A stretch of 64,000 bases of DNA from Deroplatys truncata. Its lineage: Eukaryota; Arthropoda; Insecta; Mantodea; Mantidae. The notes beneath the pieces were generated by a model. It did not search any database, was not told the origin of the DNA, and saw nothing but the letters and a program-made list of their open reading frames with translations. Made by a program: the position numbers and the translations under genes. The stretch's first letter is position 1; each line of letters begins with the position of its first letter. Shown here piece after piece: positions 1 to 58,928 of this stretch. The stretch is taken from NCBI GenBank assembly GCA_030765065.1, contig CM060977.1, positions 161,085,052 to 161,149,051 of the forward strand, read 5' to 3'.

Positions 1-1256
1 GATAAGTCCATGACTTTGACGAAAGATAGCGTCCTAATCACAGGTTTCTTGTTTGCACCCAAGTCTTACATCTATTCTGGGTATAATTGCAGAAATTCAT
101 GGTCCTTAGTTTCTTAGAACATTGTTGAGCGCGTCTAAAATAAGCAGATATGTGTTGCTCCGTAGAAAATGCAGAAAAGTGAATTTCGTGTTTTGATAAA
201 GCACTATTTTTTGTGTGGTAAGACGGTGAAGGAAACGGAAGAAAAGCTGAACAAGTATTATGGAGACTCTGCTCCATCTCATGGCATGGTTCACAAGTGG
301 TTCACAGTATTTCGATGTGGCCGTTCGAGTACTAGAGATGCCATGCACACAGGACGGGTGGTTGAGGTCACAACAGAAGAAATGGTGAACAAGCTTCAGG
401 TTATTGTGTTGGAAGACCGCCAACAGATAGCCAAGACCGTAAACATCTCGAGTAAACGGGTGCATAACATTCTGCACGAAGTTTTGGGTATGAGAAAGCT
501 GTCGGCAAGATGGGTGCCGTGACTGCTCACAGTTGAGAACAAGAGGAATCGTGTGACCATTTCACAGGGATGTTTGAACGTGTTCCAGCGCAACCCAAAT
601 GAGTTTTTGCGGCGATATATCACGGTTAAAGAAACTTGGATCCATTACCGTCAACATAAAACAAAAAACCAATCAAAGCAGTGGATTTTCTTCGGCAAAT
701 CTACTCCAAAGAAAGCCAAACCATTCCGTCGGTAGGAAAAATCATGGCAGCTGACTTTTGGGATTCACAAGGGTACCTGGAAAAGGGTAAAACGATCACC
801 GGTTCGTATTATGCCGCAATGCTGGATCAGTTTCACAGAGAATTGTTAAAGAAACGAACCCCATTTTGTAAGGAAAAGGTTCTCTTTCACCAGGACAATG
901 CATCAGCACACAGGTCAGCCATTGCCATTGCAAAATTTGTAGAATTGGGTTACTATCTGCTACCTCACCCTCCGTATTCTCCAGATTTGACTCCGAGCGA
1001 CTTCTTTCTCTTCGCAAACCTGAAAAATTCGCTCGCTGGGAAGAAATTCACGTCCAGTGAACACATCATGACAGAAACAACCTCACATTTTAAGGACTTT
1101 GAAAAATTATATTTTTTGGAAGGGTTAAAAAAATTGGAAAAACGTTGGACAACATGTATTGAATTGAAAGGAGACTATGTTGAGAAATAAAATGGATTTT
1201 TTTGGAAAAAATTGTTATTTTCTTTAAAAAGTCACTGACTTATCAATCCGCCCTCG
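1..1256 (+). mobile_element. mariner-like transposon, left end cut by window
   Basis: The first ~20 bases (GATAAGTCCATGACTTTGAC) match, inverted, the sequence at 1229-1244 (AAAAGTCACTGACTTATC). These are the two inner terminal inverted repeats of a mariner element. The right end runs to GCCCTCG at 1256, followed by TA, the usual mariner target dinucleotide. The outermost few bases of the left repeat lie outside the window. A broken transposase fills the interior. The family assignment rests on the transposase. Confidence 0.85.
169..1190 (+). pseudogene. mariner transposase, broken
   Basis: A D,D34D mariner transposase would cut and paste its element at TA. The start at 169 opens the N-terminal helix-turn-helix part (KSEFRVLIKHYFL...; SHGMVHKWFTVF). 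An in-frame TGA at 520-522 stops it. The same frame resumes through KETWIHYR to 735, and the C-terminal half is in another frame from about 681 (FHQDNASAH, then PHPPYSPDLTPSDFF with the last catalytic Asp). The first catalytic position, normally Asp in VDETW, reads Lys (codon 628-630). Stop, frameshift and lost catalytic residue make it dead. The family call is firm; the subfamily is not assigned. Confidence 0.88.
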
Positions 1257-15000: not shown

Positions 15001-15375
15001 CAAATTGATAAATAAGTTGGGGTTGGTATATCGGGATGCTGCTGGTTGTCGATATACTACAATAATACACAACTCAAGTGAAGTTAATTTACAGTATACA
15101 CATAATGTTCCAAATACCTTAATATTTATGTGTTGAAAAGTCATATCATGCTGGTCTTTAGTGTAAACGGCAACACCCCCGGGATATCTGCCTCTCAGGC
15201 CCCTGGTTTCACTACCCGTGAATACACCATTAAAACCACCAATATTTACATTTTCCCCAGCTTTAAGCCATGTCTCTGTGAAGCCCAATATATCTACACT
15301 GTGTACAAAGTCAATGAACCTATCATTAGCCAATTTCTTCTTTAGACCTTCAACATTCCAAAGGCCGACTGTCAC
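12073..15375 (-). CDS. LINE ORF2: endonuclease-reverse transcriptase (~1,100 aa)
   Basis: This enzyme nicks target DNA and reverse-transcribes the element RNA there. An AP-type endonuclease fills about residues 1-240 (TETWL; GDFNARIG near 143; VIDYVICS; ESHHSPILL). The reverse transcriptase spans about 440-780 (HKAPGIEGIPSEF near 480; FVDFKMAFDSV near 612; GVRQGCILSPLLFNLFIDD; LLYADDMTIL with YADD at about 716-719). A C-terminal CCHC motif, CPFCELDEDWVHILAEC, lies near 1027-1043. All catalytic blocks look intact. There is no ATG near the N-terminus: the frame is continuous with ORF1 across one TAG, and the listed start is a GTG. The clade (CR1/L2/I-like) is not settled. Confidence 0.92.
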   Translation of the reverse strand: MTVGLWNVEGLKKKLANDRFIDFVHSVDILGFTETWLKAGENVNIGGFNGVFTGSETRGLRGRYPGGVAVYTKDQHDMTFQHINIKVFGTLCVYCKLTSLELCIIVVYRQPAASRYTNPNLFINLADMIVEIQEIHPKANLIIMGDFNARIGSENITVERGEADCRREVRRSKDTVINSDGKELLAFCDAFKLEILNGKYGSDKEGELTFINSNGGSVIDYVICSQEIIPLIEDFQILNRVESHHSPILLTLKRHSNNVGETHEKKIALSSMVRYRWTPGGSEEFLAVLRDRTGKTEVGERSGEYVIKTITNNLQIAGRSMRIRNNKRISKATGWYNGRCKEAKKKAETALKVYRREGSEEKRLSYTQIRKQYKDVLVSVKTEWQNKMATDLRIATERRDSIYMWKVIKKIKVRRRDNVSIKPGTWLAYFNSVYAEVGGDEWEGPRMSFAELCLNSTVPILDGEITDGEIVRAIKSLKNHKAPGIEGIPSEFVKCSIEVPKILYLLRVAFNKLFNGEKYPEAWTTAIIQPIFKGKGSSQQPENYRGIALLSILGKVYCKIIYDRLRGWVKEFDMISKFQAGFREGFSTADNIFILKTLIDSNLNRKRGKLYCAFVDFKMAFDSVQRNALWAKLHHKGLSGKMMKALMQIYNGVNFSIKIDQNTTTESKSASRGVRQGCILSPLLFNLFIDDITDVLIAEEMNGPKVDDVCIPVLLYADDMTILSVTTEGLQKGINRLEQYCKQWGLVVNINKTKTMAFKNGYVYGRGEKWYYKGLELQNVKHFSYLGVMFNMRGKWNKHLSVTNYKARGQLNELLRTLSRIPDVPVDTLEKMYNSMIRPVLLYGSEIWGWERAEHVNKTQVAFWKRVLGVSQGTSNSGVLREVGCYEDTIHCKIRAVKYWLRLMHGDNSTLRSKCYKYQRENLSPKFWAADLERGLRRIGMGSVWLRAETNDKNIWKGVKRRLRDINQQEIESDCKIKPSLSLANEIKLNWGKEAYILNLGRKERSGMAWFRLGGWRAQKMTDDSGRRICPFCELDEDWVHILAECAQWENQRTIKLKEKFLSPLRKRLACWDLLADQRNWQNMGNFLAKVREARSNLSS

Positions 15376-15390
15376 ATGGGCGGCTACTTC

Positions 15391-42234: not shown

Positions 42235-42240
42235 CATATG
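42235..42240. repeat. target-site duplication, left (CATATG)
   Basis: CATATG immediately before the palindrome's left end, repeated at 58923-58928. Other family A copies have a single CATATG here (ATATCATATGTTTAAG). Confidence 0.9.
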
Positions 42241-42575
42241 AGTAGTTGTATATTGTATTTTCTGGATCAAATTTATGGCTTTTTAATTGGCTTAATTGAT
42301 TTAAATTGGCTGTAATTGGTCTTTCATGTAAAGCCGACCCAAGTAGCATGTATGTTCTGGATCAATTTATGGCTTTTTAATTGGTTCACTTGGTTCAATT
42401 GGTCTTTCATGTAAAGCCGACCCAAGTAGCGTGTATTTTCTGGATCAATTTATGGCTTTTTAATTGGTTCACTTGGTTCAATTGGTCTTTCATGTAAAGC
42501 CGACCCAAGTAGCGTGTATTTTCTGGATCAATTTATGGCTTTTTAATTGGTTCACTTGGTTCAATTGGTCTTTCA
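42241..42575. repeat. subterminal 83-bp tandem repeats, left arm
   Basis: The unit ATCAATTTATGGCTTTTTAA...AAGCCGACCCAAGTAGCGTG recurs at 42361, 42444 and 42527 (83-bp spacing), with a diverged first unit from about 42264. Mirrored at the right end. Each unit has TTAATTGGTTCACTTGG and TTCAATTGG. Such subterminal arrays often bind transposition proteins; here that is a guess. Confidence 0.85.
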
Positions 42576-43585
42576 GGCAAAGGGGACCTATAGTGCATGA
42601 GTCTTCTGGATATATTAATGGTTACTGCTGGAGTTGGTAATTGCGAGGGTCGCTTACATGTCCACGTGTTGAAGAAGAAGCATTTAAAGGTCCCCATCCT
42701 CCTCGGCTTTGGGTGGGAGGAGGTAATCAAAATAATGTCTGCATTTCCAGTCAGCTATGAGACATGATTCACCCGCTATAAAGTACACAGTGTTAATTCT
42801 AATCATATACATCAAATAAAAAAATACAAGTTTCAATTTTTGTGGCGAACGCTCCTAACGAGTCAAAAGGTTAATTTTCACCATCCTACCGAGATTTGTT
42901 GCTTTCTACGACATGAATAACATGCTACTTAAAACCGTGTATGTATACAGGGAGGTCTCCCTCCACGTCAGTTTAAAAGACGATCGCCTGACTATTCTGT
43001 CTGGAGATTCAATTATTGAGGTATAGTGTATCCCGAAAGAACGTTCACCCTACTATGGATAAAGAGTACAGGGTTATCAAAAATATGTATGTATTGAGTA
43101 TCTGTTGCAAGCACCTCTACCTCCCATGAGTTAGCGTTTAAAGGTTACGATAATATATCGCACCTCTCTCTCTCATGCACACACATACACACACACATAT
43201 CCACTCATAATCAGGCTTAACACGCTACAGTATAGCAATTTTTGAGACAGACAGTCATCTATAATGGCCGGGTAATTAAGGCTATTGACTCACCCTTCGC
43301 ATAAGCGGGGGGATCTATTCACGGTATTGATTTTTTCCCCTCTCATATAAGGACTCCCACACCATTGTAAAAGTTCGCTTTATCTACGCTAGATGCCATA
43401 AGGTTACAGAACTAACATTTGTAATTCATATCTGGCAGTATCCAGCCGGCTATTGATTTTTCATTAAAACTGCATGAGAGTCAAACACACATTAAATTAT
43501 AATGAAAAAAGTTTCATTATAGAGATAGCTAATTACACTGTTACAAGGTGTATGTACAGTGACATAAAAACGAATCACATTTTAA
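42576..43585. other. left-arm region without firm gene
   Basis: A TATAAA at about 42776 precedes a frame (42839-43024) that is shifted here by a missing T but open for 61 codons in the right arm (58321-58136, GTG-led). A CA-rich run lies near 43175. No motif is recognised. Confidence 0.45.
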
Positions 43586-43589
43586 AAAA

Positions 43590-43964
43590 ATTCTCATATG
43601 TTACACTCACATGACTTTCTCTACTCTTGTACAAACTTTTTTCTACAAACGCTTATTCTGCTTTGCTTCTACTAGGTGCAAGAGGAAAATGGTAGGCTTT
43701 AAGCATTAGTCAAATCGTTTAAGAGCTGGTTGCTATGTGACGCATTCCATTCTCTTTACATGTCTAGGACATAAAAAGATGAATAACGAATTCGAGAAAA
43801 AATATAATTATTGGGAAATTTAAGGGAATAACAAGCAATATCTCGAAAATAGGACTCAATAAAACAGGGGGCTCAAAACATAAATATCCGGTGAAATCTC
43901 GGTATCGAATTTTCGCGTGGAATACAATACTTCCCTTACTTACTCTACATAGTAGAGAAATTTA
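43590..43964 (+). repeat. family A copy, internally deleted, left arm
   Basis: Has the family's 5' end (TGTTACACTCACATGACTTT) and 3' end (GGTGAAATCTCGGTATCGAA; AGTAGAGAAATTT) but lacks the middle ~480 bp. The same deletion copy lies in the right arm, so it was acquired before the arms were duplicated. Confidence 0.85.
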
Positions 43965-44347
43965 AAATACTTAGTTATAACAGCGGGAAAGATGGCTTAT
44001 ATCTTTTTTCCCACGAGGTGTATGATTCATACAATAAACAGTAATTGAACAATGTCTTTATTACTTAATTAACAGCACACCCAAAGGCAGCTGCACCATC
44101 AATAAATTCCCTCCCTTAAGTTACTTAAGTTCATGAAGATTTACAATTTCCTGTCTAAGGGCAATTTATCTTAACAGTTCTCACGAAAAATAGAAGTCCC
44201 ACCCGTATACATGCTCACACCGTAAAATAATACATGTTAACTTTTGACATTTATCATTCATTTAAAGCCTCCCTCTCAGATGCACGTGGGATATGGATCT
44301 CATCCCTATGCTGGCGGCAAGAGTTTCATACTCATTTAGACGGTCTA

Positions 44348-44348
<1 letters not shown>

Positions 44349-44397
<49 letters not shown>

Positions 44398-44400
44398 TAA
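44349..44400. repeat. (AAT)n microsatellite, left arm
   Basis: About 14 AAT units. The right arm has about 11 more units (56732-56811), one of the few arm-to-arm differences. Confidence 0.9.
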
Positions 44401-44537
44401 TTGCATACATTCCCAGATTGTCAAGGGCATGTGACATTCATCCCTCCCTGTTTCTCACCAATGAACTGCCAGAAGCTACTAAAATGATTTTTCTTTCCTT
44501 AGCCAATGCGGAGGGGGCGTAATATTGAAAGACGCAC

Positions 44538-44545
44538 TATATAAA
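44538..44545 (+). promoter_or_regulatory. TATA box TATATAAA, left arm
   Basis: TATATAAA is followed 30 bases downstream by TTCACAGT, initiator-like, with the predicted start at about 44568. It precedes a leader exon ending in a strong splice donor. This is an RNA polymerase II arrangement. Confidence 0.6.
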
Positions 44546-44567
44546 CCCTCTACATTGCCCGCATTTC

Positions 44568-44709
44568 ACAGTTTTCATAAAGGGGCTCTATACTTGCGAC
44601 AGTTTCTGGACAGAAACCACAGAGTTTAAAAACCTTTTGAAGTGATTCAATACTATTTTTGGAAAAGAGTTCTTCATTTTTATCATCAATTGGATATACA
44701 CTTTGCAAG
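44568..44709 (+). other. predicted 5' leader exon, left arm
   Basis: From the predicted start to CTTTGCAAG, then GTAAGAAATTG (donor at 44710). The intron would run to TTCTTTTACGCATACTCTAG (acceptor AG at 45148-45149), three bases before the ATG at 45152. Splice sites are inferred from sequence only. An open 62-codon frame on the opposite strand here (44738-44550) is the alternative. Confidence 0.5.
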
Positions 44710-45151
44710 GTAAGAAATTGCTTATGTTGCCTTATCATTTAGCCATTCATTTGTAATCATCCTTCATTGCATGACATTAAATATTTCTCTTTAAGCAACA
44801 CATTTACAACTACTTAACTACACCAAGTGATACGTTTCATATATATATAGGCAGGCTAAATGCATACACTGAGCGAGCTATATATTAATCATAAATCATC
44901 ACATCGATTTCAGCAATCAATAATATCACGATAGAGATAATCGAGACTGTAATACTCATGATGCTTCTAGAATTGATTTTTTACTTCCTCTATTTTTAAT
45001 TAGCACCTGTAATGAAATTAAATTCAATTTTTAGATTCTTACACATCTTCTGACTTTAATTTTTAAGCAAGTACATGCATTATTACATGAATAAGCTATC
45101 AAATCTGAAAGATTCCCTAATTTGAATGTTTCTTTTACGCATACTCTAGAA

Positions 45152-46084
45152 ATGGAGAATACAGTGACAAGGAAACCCTACAGTGCAGCAGTCGCTTGCG
45201 ACATCTCCATCATGGAGAAATTTCTAAAGGATTTAGTCCACTTAGATCAACACTCATCACACTATCATAATCATCAGGAATTTAACCAATACACAGACAC
45301 TGCACCAATTCTTTTCACCCGAAGGCATTGCCCACCCTCTGAACCAAATCTTTTCACCCGAAGACATTCCCCACCCTCTGAACTAAATCTTTTCACCCGA
45401 AGACATTCCCCACCCTGTGAACTAAATCTTTTCACCCGAAGACATTCCCCACCCTCTGAACCAAATCTTTTCACCAGAAGACATTGCCCACCCTCTGAAC
45501 CAAATCTTTTCACCAGAAGACATTCCCCACCCTCTGAACCAAATCTTTTCACCCGAAGACATTCCCCACCCTCTGAACCAAATCTTTTCACCCGAAGACA
45601 TCAGCATTTCACAAACATCCGACACCAAAACATAAATCCATACGATTTGAATTCACAAACCACCACCAACACCACCACCACCACCACCACCGCTGCCACC
45701 ACCGCCACCACCACCCCCACTACCATCACCATTACTACACGTCCTAGATCAATATCATCCCAAACCACAATTCATATCATTGAGATTTCACCACCCCGCA
45801 TTAATCACAATAACATAGAGATCATTGATCTCACTCACCCGACGCCGAAAAAAACAAAACACACCCATGCATTATCACCACAGTCACAGCATATTTCACC
45901 GCTATCAGGCATTATACCATTGCAAGCATCACCACCCCATTTCAGAAATGTACACGCGATTCGAAGGCGTGTCACACGGAGAAGGCTAAATTTTGATCAT
46001 ATGCAACCTCTCCTACCTCCATTACCCCCATTAGTCCGCATCCCCTCCTACGGTAGAAGAAAACACCTCAACAATCCACAATAA
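45152..46084 (+). CDS. repeat-rich basic nuclear-type protein, 310 aa (left arm)
   Basis: Unrecognised protein. I chose the ATG at 45152 because it directly follows a good splice acceptor; an upstream in-frame ATG at 45122 lies in the predicted intron. Residues 1-50 are mixed, followed by seven 13-residue repeats (FTRRHSPPSEPNL and variants, about 53-145). A Thr-rich ACC-coded run is near 180. An acidic-flanked hydrophobic EIIDLTHP near 232 fits the SUMO-interaction motif (V/I-V/I-D-L-T), and a basic RRRVTRRR segment lies near 282. It ends LNNPQ and TAA. Likely nuclear and regulatory by motif only. The same gene lies in the right arm at 55033-55977 with four extra residues. It points toward the zinc-finger gene. 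Confidence 0.6.
   Translation: MENTVTRKPYSAAVACDISIMEKFLKDLVHLDQHSSHYHNHQEFNQYTDTAPILFTRRHCPPSEPNLFTRRHSPPSELNLFTRRHSPPCELNLFTRRHSPPSEPNLFTRRHCPPSEPNLFTRRHSPPSEPNLFTRRHSPPSEPNLFTRRHQHFTNIRHQNINPYDLNSQTTTNTTTTTTTAATTATTTPTTITITTRPRSISSQTTIHIIEISPPRINHNNIEIIDLTHPTPKKTKHTHALSPQSQHISPLSGIIPLQASPPHFRNVHAIRRRVTRRRLNFDHMQPLLPPLPPLVRIPSYGRRKHLNNPQ
45310..45605. repeat. 39-bp coding tandem repeats
   Basis: Seven units of 39 bp encode the 13-residue FTRRHSPPSEPNL-type repeat. Units differ by a few substitutions (Cys for Ser, Leu for Pro). The multiple-of-three length keeps the frame, which favours a real protein. Confidence 0.9.
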
Positions 46085-46085
46085 A

Positions 46086-46190
46086 AACAAACAAACAAAC
46101 AAACAAACAAAAAAAACACAATCACTCTAAATACAGCATACATACATACATACATAAATACATACATACATACATACATACACGAAATAC
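46086..46190. repeat. (AAAC)n and (CATA)n runs
   Basis: Simple repeats directly after the stop codon: ACAAACAAACAAAC, then CATACATACATACAT. Confidence 0.9.
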
Positions 46191-46299
46191 ACAGCCAGCA
46201 ATGTTCACACTCACATTCATACATTCACAGTTTCATTAATATCTAACCTGGACTGGACCAAACTAAGGAAAGAAACAAGGTAACATTCATCAAGGCTAT

Positions 46300-46980
46300 T
46301 ATTTTTTTAAATATTAGAATCATAGAACAATATAAAAACATTACTGATAATGGCCAATATGAGGTCCATCACATCTATTTCTCTACAGGAGAACACTTAT
46401 TACAACAATAAATGCAATTCTTTCAACACAATGTGTAATGTTTCAGGACTGCCAGCAACGATTCATCTTTACCACAGCAAGCAAAGCACTGTTGCAGACC
46501 TTAAGCTGTGTCTCCACAGCATCGTTCAATGTCTGCAATGAATAATACATCAATCATCAATTGTCTCAACCGATTTAAAATACAAAAGGTGAGAATTACT
46601 CTTACATTATTTGAACATTGCTCTAGTTACTGTTTCTCCTAATAGCGACATTCCCATTAAAGATCATTCACGCATAAAAGACATCGCCTTATTATCTTTA
46701 ATCCTATAACGATGTATTTCTTTCAGGACACCTGGCATTTATCTTTCAAATCATGACAACTAATGGTTCATTTGTTATGTTTCAGACTCCTAGGAAAAGC
46801 AACAAATAAGAAGAACGCCAAGAATACCATAATGATGCCCACTGAGTTCGCTTCTGAAAGAGCGAAATATCCGCGTCTTCACACGTCGACAGATGAAAAC
46901 GTCACCAATGCTCCAAGATCAGCGAATCACAATGCAGCAGTGACAAATGGGATTATTCAGTGAATACTACGTTGTGACTG
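46300..46980 (+). other. possible further exons, left arm (weak)
   Basis: Splice-like sites are dense: acceptors TTTCTCTACAG (46388), AATGTTTCAG (46447), TTCTTTCAG (46726) and TTATGTTTCAG (46784), and a donor ACAAAAGGTGAGAATT (46587). Two short open frames lie here (ending 46541 and 46963), the second with KATNKKNAKNTI and SERAKYPRLHTSTDE. I could not join them into one frame. They may be untranslated exons or nothing. Confidence 0.3.
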
Positions 46981-47578
46981 ATAAAAAATGTAATAATGAA
47001 ATCATATACGCCTCATTATTTGTGTGGGGGAAAGGCTCATACTATTCGAAGAATATGTGATTATGAAACAGCAAGGGGACAGTTAATTCACTTAACTTAT
47101 TGTATTATCATATAATTTCATTGATTCTGGAAATGAAACAAATAGACTTTTATCATATTGAACAAATGAATGCAGTAAAAAATAAAAACTTTATTTAATA
47201 AAAATAACAGTGACATTTATTGACGACATTGTATTTATTCACTCATATTGTATAAAGACATGCTAAATAGTTATTTTGCTGTAATGATTGACATGTATCA
47301 ATGTAAAATCAATAAAGTGAAAAATAATAGATTTCACATCATTTCCAGGCATTATCATCCGCTTCAATACTTAGAGTACATTGGAAAATTTTATAAAGTG
47401 ATGGATCCCAAACACAGCCTACAAATATAACATAACGCTAGGATAGTCTGCGAACAGGTAGAGTTAGGCTCGCACGATTGACCGAGTTTGAAGAACAGTC
47501 TACCATAGAATGTCTTAGGAATGGATTCGTCATGATTGTCATGGTTGGCTGCGTTTCACGGTTAAGTTATTTACGTTA
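46981..47578. other. left-arm region without firm gene
   Basis: AT-rich, with AATAAA-type signals around 47180-47205 that could end the upstream gene. No coding motif is seen. Confidence 0.35.
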
Positions 47579-48290
47579 GTGGTTACGTTTTGTGGTTACG
47601 TTGGTTACGTGGTTAGTGGTTACGTTGGTTACGTGGTTAGTGGTTACGTTGGTTACGTGGTTAGTGGTTACGTTGGTTACATGGTTAGTGGTTACGTTGG
47701 TTACGTGGTTAGTGGTTACGTTGGTTACGTGGTTAGTGGTTACGTTGGTTACGTGGTTAGTGGTTACGTTGGTTACGTGGTTAGTGGTTACGTTGGTTAC
47801 GTGGTTAGTGGTTACGTTGGTTACGTGGTTACGTTGGTTACGTGGTTAGTGGTTACGTTGGTTACGTGGTTAGTGGTTACGTTGGTTACATGGTTAGTGG
47901 TTACGTTGGTTACGTGGTTAGTGGTTACGTTGGTTACGTGGTTAGTGGTTACGTTGGTTACGTGGTTAGTGGTTACGTTGGTTACGTGGTTAGTGGTTAC
48001 GTTGGTTACGTGGTTAGTGGTTACGTTGGTTACGTGGTTAGTGGTTACGTTGGTTAGTGGTTACGTTGGTTACGTGGTTACGTTGGTTACGTGGTTACAT
48101 TGGTTACGTGGTTAGTGGTTACGCTGGTTACGTGGTTAGTGGTTACGTTGGTTACGTGGTTAGTGGTTACCTTGGTTACGTGGTTAGTGGTTACGTTGGT
48201 TACGTGGTTAGTGGTTACGTTGGTTACGTGGTTACGTTGGTTACGTGGTTAGTGGTTACGTTGGTTACGTGGTTACGTTGGTTAAGTTTA
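47579..48290. repeat. 24-bp GGTTA minisatellite, left arm
   Basis: Roughly 29 units of GGTTAGTGGTTACGTTGGTT+ACGT (24 bp), with some shortened units near 47830 and 48050-48110. Each unit holds three GGTTA motifs. GGTTA is the insect telomere pentamer TTAGG in another register. The array happens to be open in several frames, which explains long apparent frames here. The right arm has one unit fewer. Confidence 0.92.
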
Positions 48291-49256
48291 GTGATCTTTC
48301 AGAGCAGGTAAGGCAGGGATAGATTGGCTTAGGATGGTCGCTTGTGGCTAGGTTAGACTACTCCCTAAATACCTAAAACTAACCAATTCAGGGATTGTGC
48401 CTATCGGTCTCACATGTTAATTACTTAACATATAGAAGCTTACAAAATCTAGAAAAAAAAGGACTGAAAGTATATATATTTATTCTAATAATGGATAAGA
48501 AATGCTCATAAAGTATCAAAATCAGTGGAAAATACATTAACTCTTGAAATTAGAATAAATACTTGCTTTAATGTACTGACTTACAAATGAAATTCCACTC
48601 TCCATATTACAATAGCATCCTAAAAGCATGTCACAATTCCTCATTCACATCTTAAAATACACTGAAAGAGGCTCAAATTCTCTTACCAGAAACTTTGAAA
48701 ATAGCTGCAACGCGCCTAAAGAACCATCAGAATACTGTAAAGATCTGAGGCAATATCATGAACATAACAGCTCCTGCTTATAAAACCAATCATAATTTTC
48801 CAAAAACCTGTGTCTAATAGCTCATAAACGCCAGCTAAATGCTCTACAGTTCCTATTCCAGTGGCTAAAATGCAAGCAAACATTTCTAAAAATACAATAC
48901 ATTGCCTGTTACAGGATGAAAAATATATTCGAAATACCTACATCAATCCCTCCGTCTGTATTTTGAAGGATACTTTAAAAAAACATCATAAAGCATATTC
49001 AAAATGTTCTGAAAATCTTAAAAAGAAATATATGTATTAAACCTAAAATACACAAAGGATAAAATCTAAACATCAGGCTTTATTATGAATAGGGACAGAG
49101 GCTAGAAAGGCAAATCAAAAGAAACACTTAAGTAAATGGTGAAAATATCTTTATTGAGAATTATTATTATTTGATTTTACATTAAGCAAACACTAGAGCA
49201 TTGAACAGAAGCAAACAAAATTTTAACACACTCATTTCATTCAAATGTGAAAGCTC
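48291..49256. other. left-arm region without firm gene
   Basis: AT-rich, no recognisable gene; the 3' flank of the zinc-finger gene on the minus strand. Confidence 0.4.
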
Positions 49257-49281
49257 TTTATTATACAGAGTTCAGTCTCAA

Positions 49282-49848
49282 TCATGCTATAATCCCAATG
49301 CTCTTCAATACTAGGATGATCTTATTAATCTCAATAGAAAAGTCGTTTTTACCAGCTTCATGCGACATCATTAACAGTCTTAGTTGGTGTACTAAGTCAT
49401 TAGGATCTGTACAGGGATATAAAATCTCAATATTCGCCTTGGATACATCACCCACACTGGACGAGTTAACACTAAAATGTTTATTTTCACTCAGGTGATT
49501 ATTCAGAGTTTCATCATCCAAAGACACTGCTCTTCTTACATCTAACATCCCTGGTCTTGAAGAGATTTCAGTAGCACTCAGGGGTGATCCAAGCGCTTCA
49601 CAGCTTAACTCTAACATCCCTGGTCTTGAATAGATTTCACCATCACTTACGGGAGTTCTAAGCACTGCACACTTCAATGATTCATTACTACATCTTTGCC
49701 GGTGTTGTTTAAGTCTTGAAATAGATCTGTTTTTTAAAATCCTACTGCACATACGACACTTGACAGAACGATTCTTCTCATGGGTAATATAGGAAAAATG
49801 AAGCTTTTCGTAAGCTGGCTGTATTTGAATGTCAATAAGGGAATCCAT
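49282..49848 (-). CDS. BED-like CCHC zinc-finger protein, 188 aa (left arm)
   Basis: Unrecognised beyond the finger. Cys31, Cys34, His49 and Cys53 (CRMC...LKQHRQRC) form a CX2C-X14-HX3C BED/C2H2-like finger, usual in DNA-binding transposon proteins. Residues ~70-105 have two related segments (EIYSRPGMLEL and EISSRPGMLDV). The C-terminus (~148-188: DLVHQLRLLMMSHEAG...INKIILVLKSIGII) looks helical. It starts MDSLIDIQIQ. It is transcribed away from the palindrome centre. A TATA-like TTATATAAG is at 49991-49999 reversed, and an AATAAA is just past the stop. Identical in the right arm. It could bind the element's ends; that is inference. Confidence 0.7.
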   Translation of the reverse strand: MDSLIDIQIQPAYEKLHFSYITHEKNRSVKCRMCSRILKNRSISRLKQHRQRCSNESLKCAVLRTPVSDGEIYSRPGMLELSCEALGSPLSATEISSRPGMLDVRRAVSLDDETLNNHLSENKHFSVNSSSVGDVSKANIEILYPCTDPNDLVHQLRLLMMSHEAGKNDFSIEINKIILVLKSIGIIA

Positions 49849-49990
49849 GATTGTTCTAGAATATCATATACTGTATATGATTTCGAAGCTGCACCCACAT
49901 ATGTCATCAGGAGACTGTAGAATTATTTGCTTATTTCCTAATTTTATCGGTAATCTCACATCATTGATAACCATAAACCTTGCAGTCAAG

Positions 49991-49997
49991 TTATATA
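49991..49997 (-). promoter_or_regulatory. possible TATA box for zinc-finger gene, left arm
   Basis: TTATATA (reverse TATATAA) lies ~143 bases upstream of the ATG at 49848 on the minus strand. Mirrored at 51145-51151. Weak by itself. Confidence 0.35.
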
Positions 49998-50360
49998 AGA
50001 AATGGGGCTATGACAGAATTCCACATTAATTGCAGCTACTCCATTAATTACATAAGCTCACCATGCATTAAATGAAGTCTACCCTTACTTGTAATATTGG
50101 AGGATATATGACGCAACCTCATTGAATATGTTAGCACTTGAATATGCAATGTTTCAAGACTAGAAGGTCACCCATACAGATCTTCCTATGAAGAACCATA
50201 CTACAGGGAAAGTGAGCAGTACACAAGTTGAAGATTTCGAGACATGCTGAGGTCCCTAACGTTTCCAGGTTATAACACCTCACTTTACAAGTCCCCCCTG
50301 TAACGACTCATTCCACATAGCAAGAGGAGAGGAGAGTCAACGAGGATCAACCGAGCATTT

Positions 50361-50781
50361 TGTGAAGTCCTTAAATGTAATAAGATAATACCATATACCT
50401 ACCAAAGTAACCAAAATATTCCCATACCTTGTAAATGTAACCAATATATTTCCATACCTTCTAATGTAGTCAAAGTATTTCCATACCTTCTAATGTAACC
50501 AATATATTTCCATACCTTCTAATGTAGTCAAAGTATTTCCATACCTTCTAATGTAGTCAAAGTATTTCCATACCTTCTAATGTAACCAATATATTTCCAT
50601 ACCTTCTAATGTAGTCAAAGTATTTCCATACCTTCTAATGTAGTCAAAGTATTTCCATACCTTCTAATGTAGTCAAAGTATTTCCATACCTTCTAATGTA
50701 ACCAATATATTTCCATACCTTCTAATGTAGTCAAAGTATTTCCATACCTTCTAATGTAGTCAAAGTATTTCCATACCTTCT
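50361..50781. repeat. palindrome spacer: 29-bp minisatellite
   Basis: The unit TTTCCATACCTTCTAATGTA plus GTCAAAGTA (type a) or ACCAATATA (type b), 29 bp. The order of types is irregular but patterned (b between runs of one, two, two, then three a units). It is the only part of the element that is not inverted-repeated. It may mark the junction where the arms were joined, or a hairpin end. Confidence 0.88.
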
Positions 50782-51293
50782 AAATGCTTGGTTGATCCTC
50801 GTTGACTCTCCTCTCCTCTTGCTATGTGGAATGAGTCGTTACAGGGGGGACTTGTAAAGTGAGGTGTTATAACCTGGAAACGTTAGGGACCTCAGCATGT
50901 CTCGAAATCTTCAACTTGTGTACTGCTCACTTTCCCTGTAGTATGGTTCTTCATAGGAAGATCTGTATGGGTGACCTTCTAGTCTTGAAACATTGCATAT
51001 TCAAGTGCTAACATATTCAATGAGGTTGCGTCATATATCCTCCAATATTACAAGTAAGGGTAGACTTCATTTAATGCATGGTGAGCTTATGTAATTAATG
51101 GAGTAGCTGCAATTAATGTGGAATTCTGTCATAGCCCCATTTCTTATATAACTTGACTGCAAGGTTTATGGTTATCAATGATGTGAGATTACCGATAAAA
51201 TTAGGAAATAAGCAAATAATTCTACAGTCTCCTGATGACATATGTGGGTGCAGCTTCGAAATCATATACAGTATATGATATTCTAGAACAATC
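50782..51293. other. right-arm inner region, upstream of zinc-finger gene
   Basis: Mirror of 49849-50360. It contains the TATA-like TATATAA at 51145-51151 and the region just upstream of the ATG (ATATTCTAGAACAATC), which resembles a splice acceptor. Confidence 0.4.
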
Positions 51294-51860
51294 ATGGATT
51301 CCCTTATTGACATTCAAATACAGCCAGCTTACGAAAAGCTTCATTTTTCCTATATTACCCATGAGAAGAATCGTTCTGTCAAGTGTCGTATGTGCAGTAG
51401 GATTTTAAAAAACAGATCTATTTCAAGACTTAAACAACACCGGCAAAGATGTAGTAATGAATCATTGAAGTGTGCAGTGCTTAGAACTCCCGTAAGTGAT
51501 GGTGAAATCTATTCAAGACCAGGGATGTTAGAGTTAAGCTGTGAAGCGCTTGGATCACCCCTGAGTGCTACTGAAATCTCTTCAAGACCAGGGATGTTAG
51601 ATGTAAGAAGAGCAGTGTCTTTGGATGATGAAACTCTGAATAATCACCTGAGTGAAAATAAACATTTTAGTGTTAACTCGTCCAGTGTGGGTGATGTATC
51701 CAAGGCGAATATTGAGATTTTATATCCCTGTACAGATCCTAATGACTTAGTACACCAACTAAGACTGTTAATGATGTCGCATGAAGCTGGTAAAAACGAC
51801 TTTTCTATTGAGATTAATAAGATCATCCTAGTATTGAAGAGCATTGGGATTATAGCATGA
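51294..51860 (+). CDS. BED-like CCHC zinc-finger protein, 188 aa (right arm)
   Basis: Identical protein to the left-arm copy at 49282-49848: BED-like finger at residues 31-53, duplicated SRPGML segment, helical C-terminus. Start ATG at 51294 follows AACAATC. It is transcribed outward from the spacer, toward the 24-bp minisatellite. An AATAAA at 51880-51885 is 20 bases after the stop, and a second lies at 51987-51992. Complete identity between copies implies recent arm duplication or ongoing gene conversion. Confidence 0.7.
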   Translation: MDSLIDIQIQPAYEKLHFSYITHEKNRSVKCRMCSRILKNRSISRLKQHRQRCSNESLKCAVLRTPVSDGEIYSRPGMLELSCEALGSPLSATEISSRPGMLDVRRAVSLDDETLNNHLSENKHFSVNSSSVGDVSKANIEILYPCTDPNDLVHQLRLLMMSHEAGKNDFSIEINKIILVLKSIGIIA

Positions 51861-51879
51861 TTGAGACTGAACTCTGTAT

Positions 51880-51885
51880 AATAAA
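51880..51885 (+). promoter_or_regulatory. polyadenylation signal AATAAA
   Basis: AATAAA 20 bases past the zinc-finger stop codon, with another at 51987-51992. Mirrored in the left arm near 49257-49262. It supports a eukaryotic transcription unit ending here. Confidence 0.6.
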
Positions 51886-51892
51886 GAGCTTT

Positions 51893-52850
51893 CACATTTG
51901 AATGAAATGAGTGTGTTAAAATTTTGTTTGCTTCTGTTCAATGCTCTAGTGTTTGCTTAATGTAAAATCAAATAATAATAATTCTCAATAAAGATATTTT
52001 CACCATTTACTTAAGTGTTTCTTTTGATTTGCCTTTCTAGCCTCTGTCCCTATTCATAATAAAGCCTGATGTTTAGATTTTATCCTTTGTGTATTTTAGG
52101 TTTAATACATATATTTCTTTTTAAGATTTTCAGAACATTTTGAATATGCTTTATGATGTTTTTTTAAAGTATCCTTCAAAATACAGACGGAGGGATTGAT
52201 GTAGGTATTTCGAATATATTTTTCATCCTGTAACAGGCAATGTATTGTATTTTTAGAAATGTTTGCTTGCATTTTAGCCACTGGAATAGGAACTGTAGAG
52301 CATTTAGCTGGCGTTTATGAGCTATTAGACACAGGTTTTTGGAAAATTATGATTGGTTTTATAAGCAGGAGCTGTTATGTTCATGATATTGCCTCAGATC
52401 TTTACAGTATTCTGATGGTTCTTTAGGCGCGTTGCAGCTATTTTCAAAGTTTCTGGTAAGAGAATTTGAGCCTCTTTCAGTGTATTTTAAGATGTGAATG
52501 AGGAATTGTGACATGCTTTTAGGATGCTATTGTAATATGGAGAGTGGAATTTCATTTGTAAGTCAGTACATTAAAGCAAGTATTTATTCTAATTTCAAGA
52601 GTTAATGTATTTTCCACTGATTTTGATACTTTATGAGCATTTCTTATCCATTATTAGAATAAATATATATACTTTCAGTCCTTTTTTTTCTAGATTTTGT
52701 AAGCTTCTATATGTTAAGTAATTAACATGTGAGACCGATAGGCACAATCCCTGAATTGGTTAGTTTTAGGTATTTAGGGAGTAGTCTAACCTAGCCACAA
52801 GCGACCATCCTAAGCCAATCTATCCCTGCCTTACCTGCTCTGAAAGATCA
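51893..52850. other. right-arm region without firm gene
   Basis: Mirror of 48291-49256; AT-rich, no motif. Confidence 0.4.
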
Positions 52851-52856
52851 CTAAAC

Positions 52857-53541
52857 TTAACCAACGTAACCACGTAACCAACGTAACCACTAACCACGTA
52901 ACCAACGTAACCACGTAACCAACGTAACCACTAACCACGTAACCAACGTAACCACTAACCACGTAACCAAGGTAACCACTAACCACGTAACCAACGTAAC
53001 CACTAACCACGTAACCAGCGTAACCACTAACCACGTAACCAATGTAACCACGTAACCAACGTAACCACGTAACCAACGTAACCACTAACCAACGTAACCA
53101 CTAACCACGTAACCAACGTAACCACTAACCACGTAACCAACGTAACCACTAACCACGTAACCAACGTAACCACTAACCACGTAACCAACGTAACCACTAA
53201 CCACGTAACCAACGTAACCACTAACCATGTAACCAACGTAACCACTAACCACGTAACCAACGTAACCACTAACCACGTAACCAACGTAACCACGTAACCA
53301 ACGTAACCACTAACCACGTAACCAACGTAACCACTAACCACGTAACCAACGTAACCACTAACCACGTAACCAACGTAACCACTAACCACGTAACCAACGT
53401 AACCACTAACCACGTAACCAACGTAACCACTAACCATGTAACCAACGTAACCACTAACCACGTAACCAACGTAACCACTAACCACGTAACCAACGTAACC
53501 ACTAACCACGTAACCAACGTAACCACAAAACGTAACCACTA
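52857..53541. repeat. 24-bp GGTTA minisatellite, right arm
   Basis: Mirror of 47579-48290, with the C-rich strand (TAACC) on plus. One 24-bp unit shorter than the left array. Rare variants (CCATGTAACC; AAGGTAACC; CCAGCGTAACC) occur in matching positions in both arms. Confidence 0.92.
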
Positions 53542-54136
53542 ACGTAAATAACTTAACCGTGAAACGCAGCCAACCATGACAATCATGACGAATCCATTCC
53601 TAAGACATTCTATGGTAGACTGTTCTTCAAACTCGGTCAATCGTGCGAGCCTAACTCTACCTGTTCGCAGACTATCCTAGCGTTATGTTATATTTGTAGG
53701 CTGTGTTTGGGATCCATCACTTTATAAAATTTTCCAATGTACTCTAAGTATTGAAGCGGATGATAATGCCTGGAAATGATGTGAAATCTATTATTTTTCA
53801 CTTTATTGATTTTACATTGATACATGTCAATCATTACAGCAAAATAACTATTTAGCATGTCTTTATACAATATGAGTGAATAAATACAATGTCGTCAATA
53901 AATGTCACTGTTATTTTTATTAAATAAAGTTTTTATTTTTTACTGCATTCATTTGTTCAATATGATAAAAGTCTATTTGTTTCATTTCCAGAATCAATGA
54001 AATTATATGATAATACAATAAGTTAAGTGAATTAACTGTCCCCTTGCTGTTTCATAATCACATATTCTTCGAATAGTATGAGCCTTTCCCCCACACAAAT
54101 AATGAGGCGTATATGATTTCATTATTACATTTTTTA
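53542..54136. other. right-arm region without firm gene
   Basis: Mirror of 46981-47578. Confidence 0.35.
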
Positions 54137-54815
54137 TCAGTCACAACGTAGTATTCACTGAATAATCCCATTTGTCACTGCTGCATTGTGATTCGCTGAT
54201 CTTGGAGCATTGGTGACGTTTTCATCTGTCGACGTGTGAAGACGCGGATATTTCGCTCTTTCAGAAGCGAACTCAGTGGGCATCATTATGGTATTCTTGG
54301 CGTTCTTCTTATTTGTTGCTTTTCCTAGGAGTCTGAAACATAACAAATGAACCATTAGTTGTCATGATTTGAAAGATAAATGCCAGGTGTCCTGAAAGAA
54401 ATACATCGTTATAGGATTAAAGATAATAAGGCGATGTCTTTTATGCGTGAATGATCTTTAATGGGAATGTCGCTATTAGGAGAAACAGTAACTAGAGCAA
54501 TGTTCAAATAATGTAAGAGTAATTCTCACCTTTTGTATTTTAAATCGGTTGAGACAATTGATGATTGATGTATTATTCATTGCAGACATTGAACGATGCT
54601 GTGGAGACACAGCTTAAGGTCTGCAACAGTGCTTTGCTTGCTGTGGTAAAGATGAATCGTTGCTGGCAGTCCTGAAACATTACACATTGTGTTGAAAGAA
54701 TTGCATTTATTGTTGTAATAAGTGTTCTCCTGTAGAGAAATAGATGTGATGGACCTCATATTGGCCATTATCAGTAATGTTTTTATATTGTTCTATGATT
54801 CTAATATTTAAAAAA
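54137..54815 (-). other. possible further exons, right arm (weak)
   Basis: Mirror of 46300-46980 with the same splice-like sites and the same two short frames, unchanged. Confidence 0.3.
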
Positions 54816-55032
54816 ATAATAGCCTTGATGAATGTTACCTTGTTTCTTTCCTTAGTTTGGTCCAGTCCAGGTTAGATATTAATGAAACTGTGAATGTATG
54901 AATGTGAGTGTGAACATTGCTGGCTGTGTATTTCGTGTATGTATGTATGTATGTATGTATTTATGTATGTATGTATGTATGCTGTATTTAGAGTGATTGT
55001 GTTTTTTTGTTTGTTTGTTTGTTTGTTTGTTT

Positions 55033-55977
55033 TTATTGTGGATTGTTGAGGTGTTTTCTTCTACCGTAGGAGGGGATGCGGACTAATGGGGGTAATGGAG
55101 GTAGGAGAGGTTGCATATGATCAAAATTTAGCCTTCTCCGTGTGACACGCCTTCGAATCGCGTGTACATTTCTGAAATGGGGTGGTGATGCTTGCAATGG
55201 TATAATGCCTGATAGCGGTGAAATATGCTGTGACTGTGGTGATAATGCATGGGTGTGTTTTGTTTTTTTCGGCGTCGGGTGAGTGAGATCAATGATCTCT
55301 ATGTTATTGTGATTAATGCGGGGTGGTGAAATCTCAATGATATGAATTGTGGTTTGGGATGATATTGATCTAGGACGTGTAGTAATGGTGATGGTAGTGG
55401 GGGTGGTGGTGGCGGTGGTGGCAGCGGTGGTGGCAGCGGTGGTGGTGGTGGTGGTGGTGTTGGTGGTGGTTTGTGAATTCAAATCGTATGGATTTATGTT
55501 TTGGTGTCGGATGTTTGTGAAATGCTGATGTCTTCGGGTGAAAAGATTTGGTTCAGAGGGTGGGGAATGTCTTCGGGTGAAAAGATTTGGTTCAGAGGGT
55601 GGGGAATGTCTTCTGGTGAAAAGATTTGGTTCAGAGGGTGGGCAATGTCTTCTGGTGAAAAGATTTGGTTCAGAGGGTGGGGAATGTCTTCGGGTGAAAA
55701 GATTTAGTTCACAGGGTGGGGAATGTCTTCGGGTGAAAAGATTTAGTTCAGAGGGTGGGGAATGTCTTCGGGTGAAAAGATTTGGTTCAGAGGGTGGGCA
55801 ATGCCTTCGGGTGAAAAGAATTGGTGCAGTGTCTGTGTATTGGTTAAATTCCTGATGATTATGATAGTGTGATGAGTGTTGATCTAAGTGGACTAAATCC
55901 TTTAGAAATTTCTCCATGATGGAGATGTCGCAAGCGACTGCTGCACTGTAGGGTTTCCTTGTCACTGTATTCTCCAT
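55033..55977 (-). CDS. repeat-rich basic nuclear-type protein, 314 aa (right arm)
   Basis: Copy of the left-arm 310-aa protein. The 13-residue FTRRHSPPSEPNL repeats, EIIDLTHP motif and RRRVTRRR segment are unchanged. The only difference seen is four extra residues (AATT-type) in the ACC/GCC-coded Thr/Ala run, a 12-bp gain that keeps the frame. The ATG at 55977 follows the mirrored splice acceptor. Unknown function. Frame-preserving length change in both repeat tracts argues for selection on the frame, but two copies are too few to be sure. Confidence 0.6.
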   Translation of the reverse strand: MENTVTRKPYSAAVACDISIMEKFLKDLVHLDQHSSHYHNHQEFNQYTDTAPILFTRRHCPPSEPNLFTRRHSPPSELNLFTRRHSPPCELNLFTRRHSPPSEPNLFTRRHCPPSEPNLFTRRHSPPSEPNLFTRRHSPPSEPNLFTRRHQHFTNIRHQNINPYDLNSQTTTNTTTTTTTAATTAATTATTTPTTITITTRPRSISSQTTIHIIEISPPRINHNNIEIIDLTHPTPKKTKHTHALSPQSQHISPLSGIIPLQASPPHFRNVHAIRRRVTRRRLNFDHMQPLLPPLPPLVRIPSYGRRKHLNNPQ

Positions 55978-56583
55978 TTCTAGAGTATGCGTAAAAGAAA
56001 CATTCAAATTAGGGAATCTTTCAGATTTGATAGCTTATTCATGTAATAATGCATGTACTTGCTTAAAAATTAAAGTCAGAAGATGTGTAAGAATCTAAAA
56101 ATTGAATTTAATTTCATTACAGGTGCTAATTAAAAATAGAGGAAGTAAAAAATCAATTCTAGAAACATCATGAGTATTACAGTCTCGATTATCTCTATCG
56201 TGATATTATTGATTGCTGAAATCGATGTGATGATTTATGATTAATATATAGCTCGCTCAGTGTATGCATTTAGCCTGCCTATATATATATGAAACGTATC
56301 ACTTGGTGTAGTTAAGTAGTTGTAAATGTGTTGCTTAAAGAGAAATATTTAATGTCATGCAATGAAGGATGATTACAAATGAATGGCTAAATGATAAGGC
56401 AACATAAGCAATTTCTTACCTTGCAAAGTGTATATCCAATTGATGATAAAAATGAAGAACTCTTTTCCAAAAATAGTATTGAATCACTTCAAAAGGTTTT
56501 TAAACTCTGTGGTTTCTGTCCAGAAACTGTCGCAAGTATAGAGCCCCTTTATGAAAACTGTGAAATGCGGGCAATGTAGAGGG

Positions 56584-56591
56584 TTTATATA
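56584..56591 (-). promoter_or_regulatory. TATA box, right arm
   Basis: Mirror of 44538-44545 (reads TTTATATA on plus). The predicted leader exon runs to a donor at about 56419. Confidence 0.6.
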
Positions 56592-56731
56592 GTGCGTCTT
56601 TCAATATTACGCCCCCTCCGCATTGGTTAAGGAAAGAAAAATCATTTTAGTAGCTTCTGGCAGTTCATTGGTGAGAAACAGGGAGGGATGAATGTCACAT
56701 GCCCTTGACAATCTGGGAATGTATGCAATTA

Positions 56732-56811
<80 letters not shown>
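56732..56811. repeat. (ATT)n microsatellite, right arm
   Basis: About 25 units, versus about 14 in the left arm. Confidence 0.9.
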
Positions 56812-56814
<3 letters not shown>

Positions 56815-57196
56815 TAGACCGTCTAAATGAGTATGAAACTCTTGCCGCCAGCATAGGGATGAGATCCATATCCCACGTGCATCTGAGAGGGAGGCTTTAA
56901 ATGAATGATAAATGTCAAAAGTTAACATGTATTATTTTACGGTGTGAGCATGTATACGGGTGGGACTTCTATTTTTCGTGAGAACTGTTAAGATAAATTG
57001 CCCTTAGACAGGAAATTGTAAATCTTCATGAACTTAAGTAACTTAAGGGAGGGAATTTATTGATGGTGCAGCTGCCTTTGGGTGTGCTGTTAATTAAGTA
57101 ATAAAGACATTGTTCAATTACTGTTTATTGTATGAATCATACACCTCGTGGGAAAAAAGATATAAGCCATCTTTCCCGCTGTTATAACTAAGTATT

Positions 57197-57575
57197 TTAA
57201 ATTTCTCTACTATGTAGAGTAAGTAAGGGAAGTATTGTATTCCACGCGAAAATTCGATACCGAGATTTCACCGGATATTTATGTTTTGAGCCCCCTGTTT
57301 TATTGAGTCCTATTTTCGAGATATTGCTTGTTATTCCCTTAAATTTCCCAATAATTATATTTTTTCTCGAATTCGTTATTCATCTTTTTATGTCCTAGAC
57401 ATGTAAAGAGAATGGAATGCGTCACATAGCAACCAGCTCTTAAACGATTTGACTAATGCTTAAAGCCTACCATTTTCCTCTTGCACCTAGTAGAAGCAAA
57501 GCAGAATAAGCGTTTGTAGAAAAAAGTTTGTACAAGAGTAGAGAAAGTCATGTGAGTGTAACATATGAGAATTTT
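57197..57575 (-). repeat. family A copy, internally deleted, right arm
   Basis: Mirror of 43590-43964 with the same internal deletion. Confidence 0.85.
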
Positions 57576-58585
57576 TTTAAAATGTGATTCGTTTTTATGT
57601 CACTGTACATACACCTTGTAACAGTGTAATTAGCTATCTCTATAATGAAACTTTTTTCATTATAATTTAATGTGTGTTTGACTCTCATGCAGTTTTAATG
57701 AAAAATCAATAGCCGGCTGGATACTGCCAGATATGAATTACAAATGTTAGTTCTGTAACCTTATGGCATCTAGCGTAGATAAAGCGAACTTTTACAATGG
57801 TGTGGGAGTCCTTATATGAGAGGGAAAAAAATCAATACCGTGAATAGATCCCCCCGCTTATGCGAAGGGTGAGTCAATAGCCTTAATTACCCGGCCATTA
57901 TAGATGACTGTCTGTCTCAAAAATTGCTATACTGTAGCGTGTTAAGCCTGATTATGAGTGGATATGTGTGTGTGTATGTGTGTGCATGAGAGAGAGAGGT
58001 GCGATATATTATCGTAACCTTTAAACGCTAACTCATGGGAGGTAGAGGTGCTTGCAACAGATACTCAATACATACATATTTTTGATAACCCTGTACTCTT
58101 TATCCATAGTAGGGTGAACGTTCTTTCGGGATACACTATACCTCAATAATTGAATCTCCAGACAGAATAGTCAGGCGATCGTCTTTTAAACTGACGTGGA
58201 GGGAGACCTCCCTGTATACATACACGGTTTTAAGTAGCATGTTATTCATGTCGTAGAAAGCAACAAATCTCGGTAGGATGGTGAAAATTAAACCTTTTGA
58301 CTCGTTAGGAGCGTTCGCCACAAAAATTGAAACTTGTATTTTTTTATTTGATGTATATGATTAGAATTAACACTGTGTACTTTATAGCGGGTGAATCATG
58401 TCTCATAGCTGACTGGAAATGCAGACATTATTTTGATTACCTCCTCCCACCCAAAGCCGAGGAGGATGGGGACCTTTAAATGCTTCTTCTTCAACACGTG
58501 GACATGTAAGCGACCCTCGCAATTACCAACTCCAGCAGTAACCATTAATATATCCAGAAGACTCATGCACTATAGGTCCCCTTTG
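57576..58585. other. right-arm region, possible 61-codon frame
   Basis: Mirror of 42576-43585. A minus-strand frame at 58321-58136 begins at GTG and reads LIFTILPRFVAFYDMNNML...VSLHVSLKDDRLTILSGDSI, without ATG. It might be an exon of a protein. In the left arm a missing T shifts it. No family recognised. Confidence 0.35.
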
Positions 58586-58922
58586 CCTGAAAGACCAATT
58601 GAACCAAGTGAACCAATTAAAAAGCCATAAATTGATCCAGAAAATACACGCTACTTGGGTCGGCTTTACATGAAAGACCAATTGAACCAAGTGAACCAAT
58701 TAAAAAGCCATAAATTGATCCAGAAAATACACGCTACTTGGGTCGGCTTTACATGAAAGACCAATTGAACCAAGTGAACCAATTAAAAAGCCATAAATTG
58801 ATCCAGAACATACATGCTACTTGGGTCGGCTTTACATGAAAGACCAATTACAGCCAATTTAAATCAATTAAGCCAATTAAAAAGCCATAAATTTGATCCA
58901 GAAAATACAATATACAACTACT
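58586..58922. repeat. subterminal 83-bp tandem repeats, right arm
   Basis: Mirror of 42241-42575, ending CAATATACAACTACT at the element's right edge. Confidence 0.85.
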
Positions 58923-58928
58923 CATATG
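58923..58928. repeat. target-site duplication, right (CATATG)
   Basis: CATATG followed by TTTAAGATATTTTTATGAC, the normal continuation of family A from the left side. Confidence 0.9.

Follow-up and report, generated by a model that had tools for sequence, protein, structure and literature searches.

A family of giant palindromic elements with Polinton-type ends in the genome of the mantis Deroplatys truncata

Fold-back elements and miniature inverted-repeat transposable elements (MITEs) are short, non-coding and non-autonomous, with long inverted repeats and subterminal tandem repeats. Among viruses, defective adenovirus genomes, which arise in passaged stocks, are inverted duplications of one end, and in parvovirus-type self-priming the second strand is made from the folded 3' end of a short terminal hairpin. 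Long palindromes are regarded as chromosomally unstable, so that a dispersed family of near-perfect 16-kb palindromes is unexpected. We describe such a family here, starting from a 16,682-bp element in a 64,000-nt stretch (the window) of the Deroplatys truncata genome (GCA_030765065.1, contig CM060977.1, positions 161,085,052 to 161,149,051), and compare it with the Polintons, or Mavericks, of the same 4.29-Gb source genome (818 contigs), from which all copies were taken. Vertebrate Mavericks, as described in the portion of PMC8097293 drawn on here, commonly end in (AGT)2//(ACT)2 or (AG)3//(CT)3, have 6-bp target duplications and average 16,862 bp. A search of the open-access literature (titles and abstract openings for the broader queries, subscription journals being outside its coverage) found no palindromic or non-autonomous Polinton/Maverick, whether described as defective, deleted, satellite or MITE; the open-access search also found nothing on inverted-duplication genomes of defective adenoviruses.

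The element has Polinton-type ends and 6-bp target duplications, and shares its outer 1.9 kb with polymerase-, integrase- and capsid-bearing Polintons of the same genome. It belongs to a dispersed family in which both the palindrome and its loop are inherited, and it behaves as a Polinton satellite and is no autonomous Polinton. We hold with good confidence that it is a non-autonomous palindromic satellite of Polintons/Mavericks, carrying 6.2 kb of other DNA in each arm. The palindrome shares its ends with virus-like Polintons, and one half of each examined copy appears to have been made from the other.

The palindromic insertion and its target site

The insertion (42241-58922) consists of two inverted arms and a central spacer. 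Alignment of 42235-50360 with 58928-50782 gives 8172 columns with 4 mismatches and 5 gap openings, or 99.08% identity counting gaps, and bears out a first-pass annotation of the window, which had described near-identical inverted arms of about 8.1 kb around a 421-bp spacer. The length of this match excludes a chance origin. The spacer (50361-50781) is mostly a 29-bp minisatellite, present in 12.8 units.

The outermost 6 bp of the arm match, CATATG, lie outside the element and form a self-complementary target-site duplication. When joined with a single CATATG, the flanks align without a break to other copies of an approximately 870-bp host repeat in the window. One of these, at 9721-8958 (minus strand), is 87.6% identical to the joined flanks and has one CATATG at the site. 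Since other copies of the repeat show the empty site in this way, the 6-bp duplication is real, and the element indeed ends exactly at a duplicated target site, as had been claimed. Its ends, AGTAGT..ACTACT, match the Maverick motif (AGT)2//(ACT)2, which supports kinship with Polintons.

Palindromic copies and their Polinton relatives

A 2-kb arm query of the genome returned 883 first-look candidates, of which the best 40 were scored, and the family counts given here are consequently lower bounds. The matches fall in 28 places, namely 12 inverted pairs and 16 unpaired matches. Ten of the other 11 pairs were read, and all ten are giant palindromes with the same kind of ends rather than single arms with different boundaries. 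All 11 copies with arms read (E01-E07 and E09-E12) are thus giant palindromes, each with its own 6-bp duplication. Adding a copy on C6 (L033/L034), of which the ends and centre only were read, there are 12 palindromic copies with both ends known. They measure 14.8-16.7 kb, and their 6-bp target duplications, which differ in sequence between sites, are perfect in 11 of the 12 and match at 5 of 6 positions in E03. Six copies, including that of the window, have the terminus AGTAGT, four have AGTAGG and two AGTAGC.

A single copy, taken alone, could owe its near-identical arms to an assembly artefact, that is, a chimeric inverted read or a mis-join. The correct target duplication with its empty site, together with ten further palindromes elsewhere that have their own duplications and arm mismatches of up to 0.91% in the segments compared, make such an artefact extremely improbable.

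Searching the genome with the terminal 30-mer, at up to 3 mismatches, yielded 19 ends (0 in the control), which form seven pairs and five single ends. Three pairs are symmetric, while in the other four the two ends are unlike beyond the first 250 bp. We named the ends of these asymmetric elements X and Y, X being the end of the palindrome arm. The X ends differ from the window copy by 23-27 mismatches in 1445, and no Y-Y pair occurs among the seven. The asymmetric elements are Polintons 16.3-17.2 kb long, and all 4 have perfect 6-bp duplications. Genes were read in two of these copies, from one half of each. The Y half of L048 encodes a double-jelly-roll capsid protein (PF21738, 7.6e-108), a Pox_A32-type ATPase (4.4e-6) and a PLA2-like domain (2e-11), along with a weak protease match below the cut-off (PF00770, E 0.0029). 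The X half of L049 encodes a family-B polymerase (PF03175, 1.1e-22) and an rve integrase (2.8e-12). Polinton-type polymerases are abundant in this genome, with 11,882 first-look candidates, of which the best 76 were scored; the matches listed are all over the cut-off.

It is the X end that the palindrome shares. Arm positions 109-1934 are 96.2% identical to the X end of L049, the shared outer stretch being 1.93 kb long, and in the C6 palindromic copy the terminal 30 bp are the same as in the asymmetric copies. The inner 6.2 kb of the arm has no blastn match at E 1e-10 in the two Polinton halves examined. We had also considered that the palindrome might be half a Polinton duplicated, and dropped this idea because only the outer 1.9 kb is shared and the inner 6.2 kb is other DNA. 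Six-bp duplications are not unique to Polintons, and a fold-back or MITE-like element of another superfamily with such duplications, moved by a mechanism unrelated to Polintons, has to be weighed. According to the part of PMC10045372 used here, IS3EU usually makes 6-bp duplications and GingerRoot also does, with termini TA..TA in IS3EU and TA..TA or TG..CA in GingerRoot. The element's termini, AGTAG..CTACT, are unlike those given there, and it has 1.9 kb in common with polymerase- and integrase-bearing Polintons, which leaves this origin only a very slight probability.

The 16 unpaired places were probed with 601 bp at the expected partner position. Ten gave a clear inverted match, on the expected strand, beyond the element's first 250 bp, and L056 gave an inverted end closer to X than to Y. 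Four (L051, L058, L061 and L063) had no arm match in the 601-bp probe, and the L052 probe turned out to lie in host repeat. Altogether, an inverted partner, whether arm or end, is seen at 23 of the 28 places. Three places (L055, L056 and L065) match the outer, Polinton-shared part only. Two C16 copies at 353.9 and 354.0 Mb (G000:C16:353923663 and 354000050), 76 kb apart, gave identical probe results; they are probably a segmental duplication, and both are counted among the 23.

Two observations concern the ends themselves. Just inside the constant AGTAG, some 14 bp (terminal positions 6-19, compared across L009-L047) vary between copies and are equal or nearly equal at the two ends of any one copy, the asymmetric Polintons included; this stretch is possibly a matching key between satellite and helper. 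Outside the terminus, L035, L038 and L040 have nearly the same sequence, unlike other copies, and the flanks of L038 and L040 are 87% alike, perhaps reflecting a shared target repeat or a longer form of the element.

Inheritance of the centre and differences between arms

Thirteen copies have an informative centre, the L068 probe having fallen inside the arm. In nine of them (E01-E06, E10, L066 and L067), which we call the main type, the junction is identical to the base and the spacer is built of the same unit, in 6 to 15 copies. In eight of these nine, a G on one arm faces an A on the other 8 bp from the loop, in constant phase with the spacer, and this is the only inherited asymmetry between arms that was found. 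The other four centres differ. E11 and E12 retain the greater part of the outer 5.2 kb around a different core of about 2.8 kb, whereas in E07 (L019/L020) and E09 (L021/L022) the centres contain asymmetric single-copy stretches of 1.3-1.7 kb. These stretches fit the stabilisation of palindromes by central deletions, and both copies can be read as main-type elements that lost part of the centre asymmetrically.

The two core types and the differing centres of E07, E09, E11 and E12 would suit a history in which every palindrome formed afresh, by fold-back of a single-arm or asymmetric progenitor. The identical junction and spacer unit in nine of 13 informative centres and the same G/A asymmetry in eight of those nine are at odds with repeated formation, as is the possible derivation of E07 and E09 from the main type by deletion, and we rate it as quite improbable. 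The simplest history of the main type is one palindrome-forming event followed by spread in palindromic form. The first-pass annotation had proposed an inverted dimer made by replication through a hairpin end: the hairpin origin is supported in outline, whereas the palindrome is an inherited family form and not a one-off dimer.

How the arms of one copy are kept alike was addressed with a tree of five arm segments, which cover about 5 kb of the 8.1-kb arm, and less in E07, E09, E11 and E12. In all 11 copies the tree joins the two arms as sisters (support 0.917-1.000), those of E02 being identical. Divergence between arms within a copy is 0-0.91%, and that to the nearest other copy 0.51-1.14%. 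Among the five older copies (E05, E07, E09, E11 and E12), all but one of the 96 arm differences are private, each to a single arm, and they are distributed over the two arms as 12+11 of 23 in E05, 8+17 of 25 in E07, 6+7 of 14 in E09, 13+13 of 26 in E11 and 4+4 of 8 in E12. The differences are unclustered in six of seven testable copies, with E10 borderline (p 0.06). The seven main-type copies in the tree have 59 arm differences over 58 sites, none of which is common to two copies in the same orientation; at the single site hit twice, the alleles are in opposite orientation. Within the compared sequence, asymmetries born in the chromosome were therefore not passed on. Sister arms, the lack of inherited arm differences and the kept loop base fit self-templating through a hairpin.

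Gene conversion between the arms after insertion, known from Y-chromosome palindromes, would likewise give sister arms, with no need of a replication cycle, and E03, with its clustered tract of differences, could be an instance. In the five older copies, however, nearly all arm differences are private and occur on both arms, and differences are unclustered in all testable copies but one, E10 included at its borderline value. In E11, moreover, 26 arm differences stand against only 3 private changes found on both arms, which implies little homogenisation after insertion. Conversion is on this evidence an unlikely source of the likeness.

For the satellite we infer mobilisation in trans by Polinton enzymes, with a hairpin step. 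The protein-primed polymerase of a Polinton would start at either end, both being the same end, and the displaced strand would fold onto itself into a hairpin of about 8 kb closed by the minisatellite loop. The first arm would then serve as template for re-making the second, through one of two routes: self-priming by snap-back immediately beyond the loop, or mismatch repair acting on the stem. Self-priming at that point predicts an inherited loop-proximal base, since only the primer would come from the old second arm; stem repair that spares loop-proximal bases would also explain the inherited G/A. The full-length palindrome would finally be integrated by the Polinton integrase, possibly after packaging, a step considered possible because satellite and helper are similar in size. 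More tentatively, and with somewhat less than even confidence, we picture the element as a hyperparasite living on virus-like Polintons, with a genome that amounts to an 8-kb hairpin. A single arm would be kept and re-copied in each generation, so that the halves are identical at birth and a single step either fixes or removes any arm mutation; there would be two identical ends for replication and integration, and length would be held near the packaging size of the helper.

Several observations weigh against the satellite account. At five of the 28 places no second arm was found at the spot probed, and a twelfth pair, on C14 (35.5 Mb), is about 22 kb by its coordinates, outside the size range of the copies read. 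E04 lacks the loop-proximal G/A difference, having G on either side, and the core of E11 and E12 together with the centres of E07 and E09 may mean that palindromes formed, or changed, more than once. E07 alone has arms slightly further from each other (0.77%) than one of them is from its nearest other copy (0.73%), although the tree still pairs them. E03 has 15 arm differences, which are clustered and of which just 7 are private, and an apparent indel near its centre, pointing to some exchange between copies. One of the two open frames of the arm, ORF A, is broken in several copies, so that its product is not needed in cis. All of this comes from one genome, and neither extrachromosomal DNA nor particles nor transposition events were observed.

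Arm cargo and comparison with known systems

The two gene models noted in each arm correspond to two open frames, ORF B (310 aa) and ORF A (188 aa), mirrored in the other arm (Table 1). The 310 codons of ORF B lie at 45152-46081 and contain a 39-bp (13-residue) repeat. ORF A has a weak match to a BED-type zinc finger (E 0.0048), below the cut-off, and its C-terminal domain is common to a 275-aa frame encoded by Polintons (26/48 aa). No frame in the arm exceeds 329 aa, the length of the largest when counted between stops. A six-frame Pfam scan of one arm plus the spacer found no family over the cut-off and thus, in agreement with the first-pass annotation, no transposase, polymerase or integrase; nor did it detect a jelly-roll capsid, packaging ATPase or adenovirus-type protease in the arm. 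The alternative core of E11 likewise gave 0 Pfam families in six frames. The same scan, run with stops as X, overlooked the L049 polymerase, which was detected from its frame alone, and these absences in arm and core are therefore less certain than they look. Protein searches with ORF A (from residue 2 onward) and with ORF B (among the 7991 candidates sharing most words) returned no homologue at E 0.001, and ORF B has none in viral contigs. A search of solved structures gave no convincing match for ORF A, the Polinton polymerase or the protease-like frame.

Only E01, E02 and E04 have an ORF A without indels or internal stops. In E05, E06 and E10 the frame is disrupted on either arm, which suggests that the break predates insertion and was then copied to both arms. 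Among 22 arms, several of them only partly aligned, 19 carry an ORF B uninterrupted by a stop. The pN/pS values are 0.57 for ORF A (8 sequences) and 0.60 for ORF B (11 sequences), from few changes that include post-insertion ones.

Table 1. Positions of the element's features in the window
Feature	Position	Strand	Basis or remark
Left target-site duplication CATATG, itself palindromic	42235..42240	.	Sequence and empty-site comparison
Left palindrome arm, starts AGTAGT	42241..50360	+	Arm alignment
Outer 1.93 kb of arm, common with X end of asymmetric Polintons	42241..44174	+	
Subterminal 83-bp tandem repeat, 3.2 units	42314..42582	.	Mirror 58581-58849
6.2 kb of other DNA (cargo) per arm	44175..50360	+	
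TATATAAA, possible promoter of ORF B	44538..44545	+	Read by eye
ORF B, 310 aa	45152..46084	+	Open frame; mirror on - strand within 55033-56034
24/48-bp tandem array	47571..48288	.	Mirror about 52858-53543
ORF A, 188 aa	49282..49848	-	Open frame
Loop-proximal base unequal between arms (G here, A opposite)	50353	+	Centre comparison
Central non-palindromic spacer, 421 bp, proposed hairpin loop	50361..50781	.	
Right arm, inverted copy, ends ACTACT	50782..58922	-	Arm alignment
Mirror copy of ORF A	51294..51860	+	
Mirror of Polinton-shared end	56989..58922	-	Inner limit approximate
Right target-site duplication CATATG	58923..58928	.	Sequence and empty-site comparison

An Rfam scan of the window at gathering cut-offs gave 0 matches. 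The approximately 870-bp repeat is dispersed very densely across 3302-62140, in many copies, and diverged pieces of it (about 43583-43970) lie inside the Polinton-shared arm end, so that the Polinton lineage carries host-repeat DNA, or the reverse. Elsewhere in the window, two other elements were recognised by eye: a non-LTR retrotransposon-like open frame of 1105 aa, with endonuclease and reverse transcriptase (12073-15390, minus strand), and a mariner-like transposase split over two frames (166-1190, plus strand).

The copies are a natural record of a genome copying itself, in which arm differences separate chromosomal events from those of the replication cycle. The size match between satellite and helper is relevant to the question of packaging; according to the portion of PMC8097293 cited above, Maverick particles have not been observed.

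The element resembles Polintons/Mavericks in its end motif, 6-bp target duplications, size near 16-17 kb and outer 1.9 kb. It differs in that no polymerase, integrase or capsid gene was detected in its arm and in that both its ends are the same end; its terminal repeats are 8.1 kb long, whereas those of the asymmetric Polintons in this genome are about 250 bp. With fold-back elements and MITEs it has in common the non-autonomous state and long inverted repeats with subterminal tandem repeats, but at 16.7 kb it is far larger, has open frames and has a Polinton as its likely helper. Defective adenovirus genomes are similar in being protein-primed linear DNA with one end duplicated as a palindrome; the element, in contrast, is an integrated, cargo-bearing family. 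Parvovirus-type replication offers a parallel to the second strand proposed here to grow from a folded 3' end, except that in the element the whole genome would be the hairpin.

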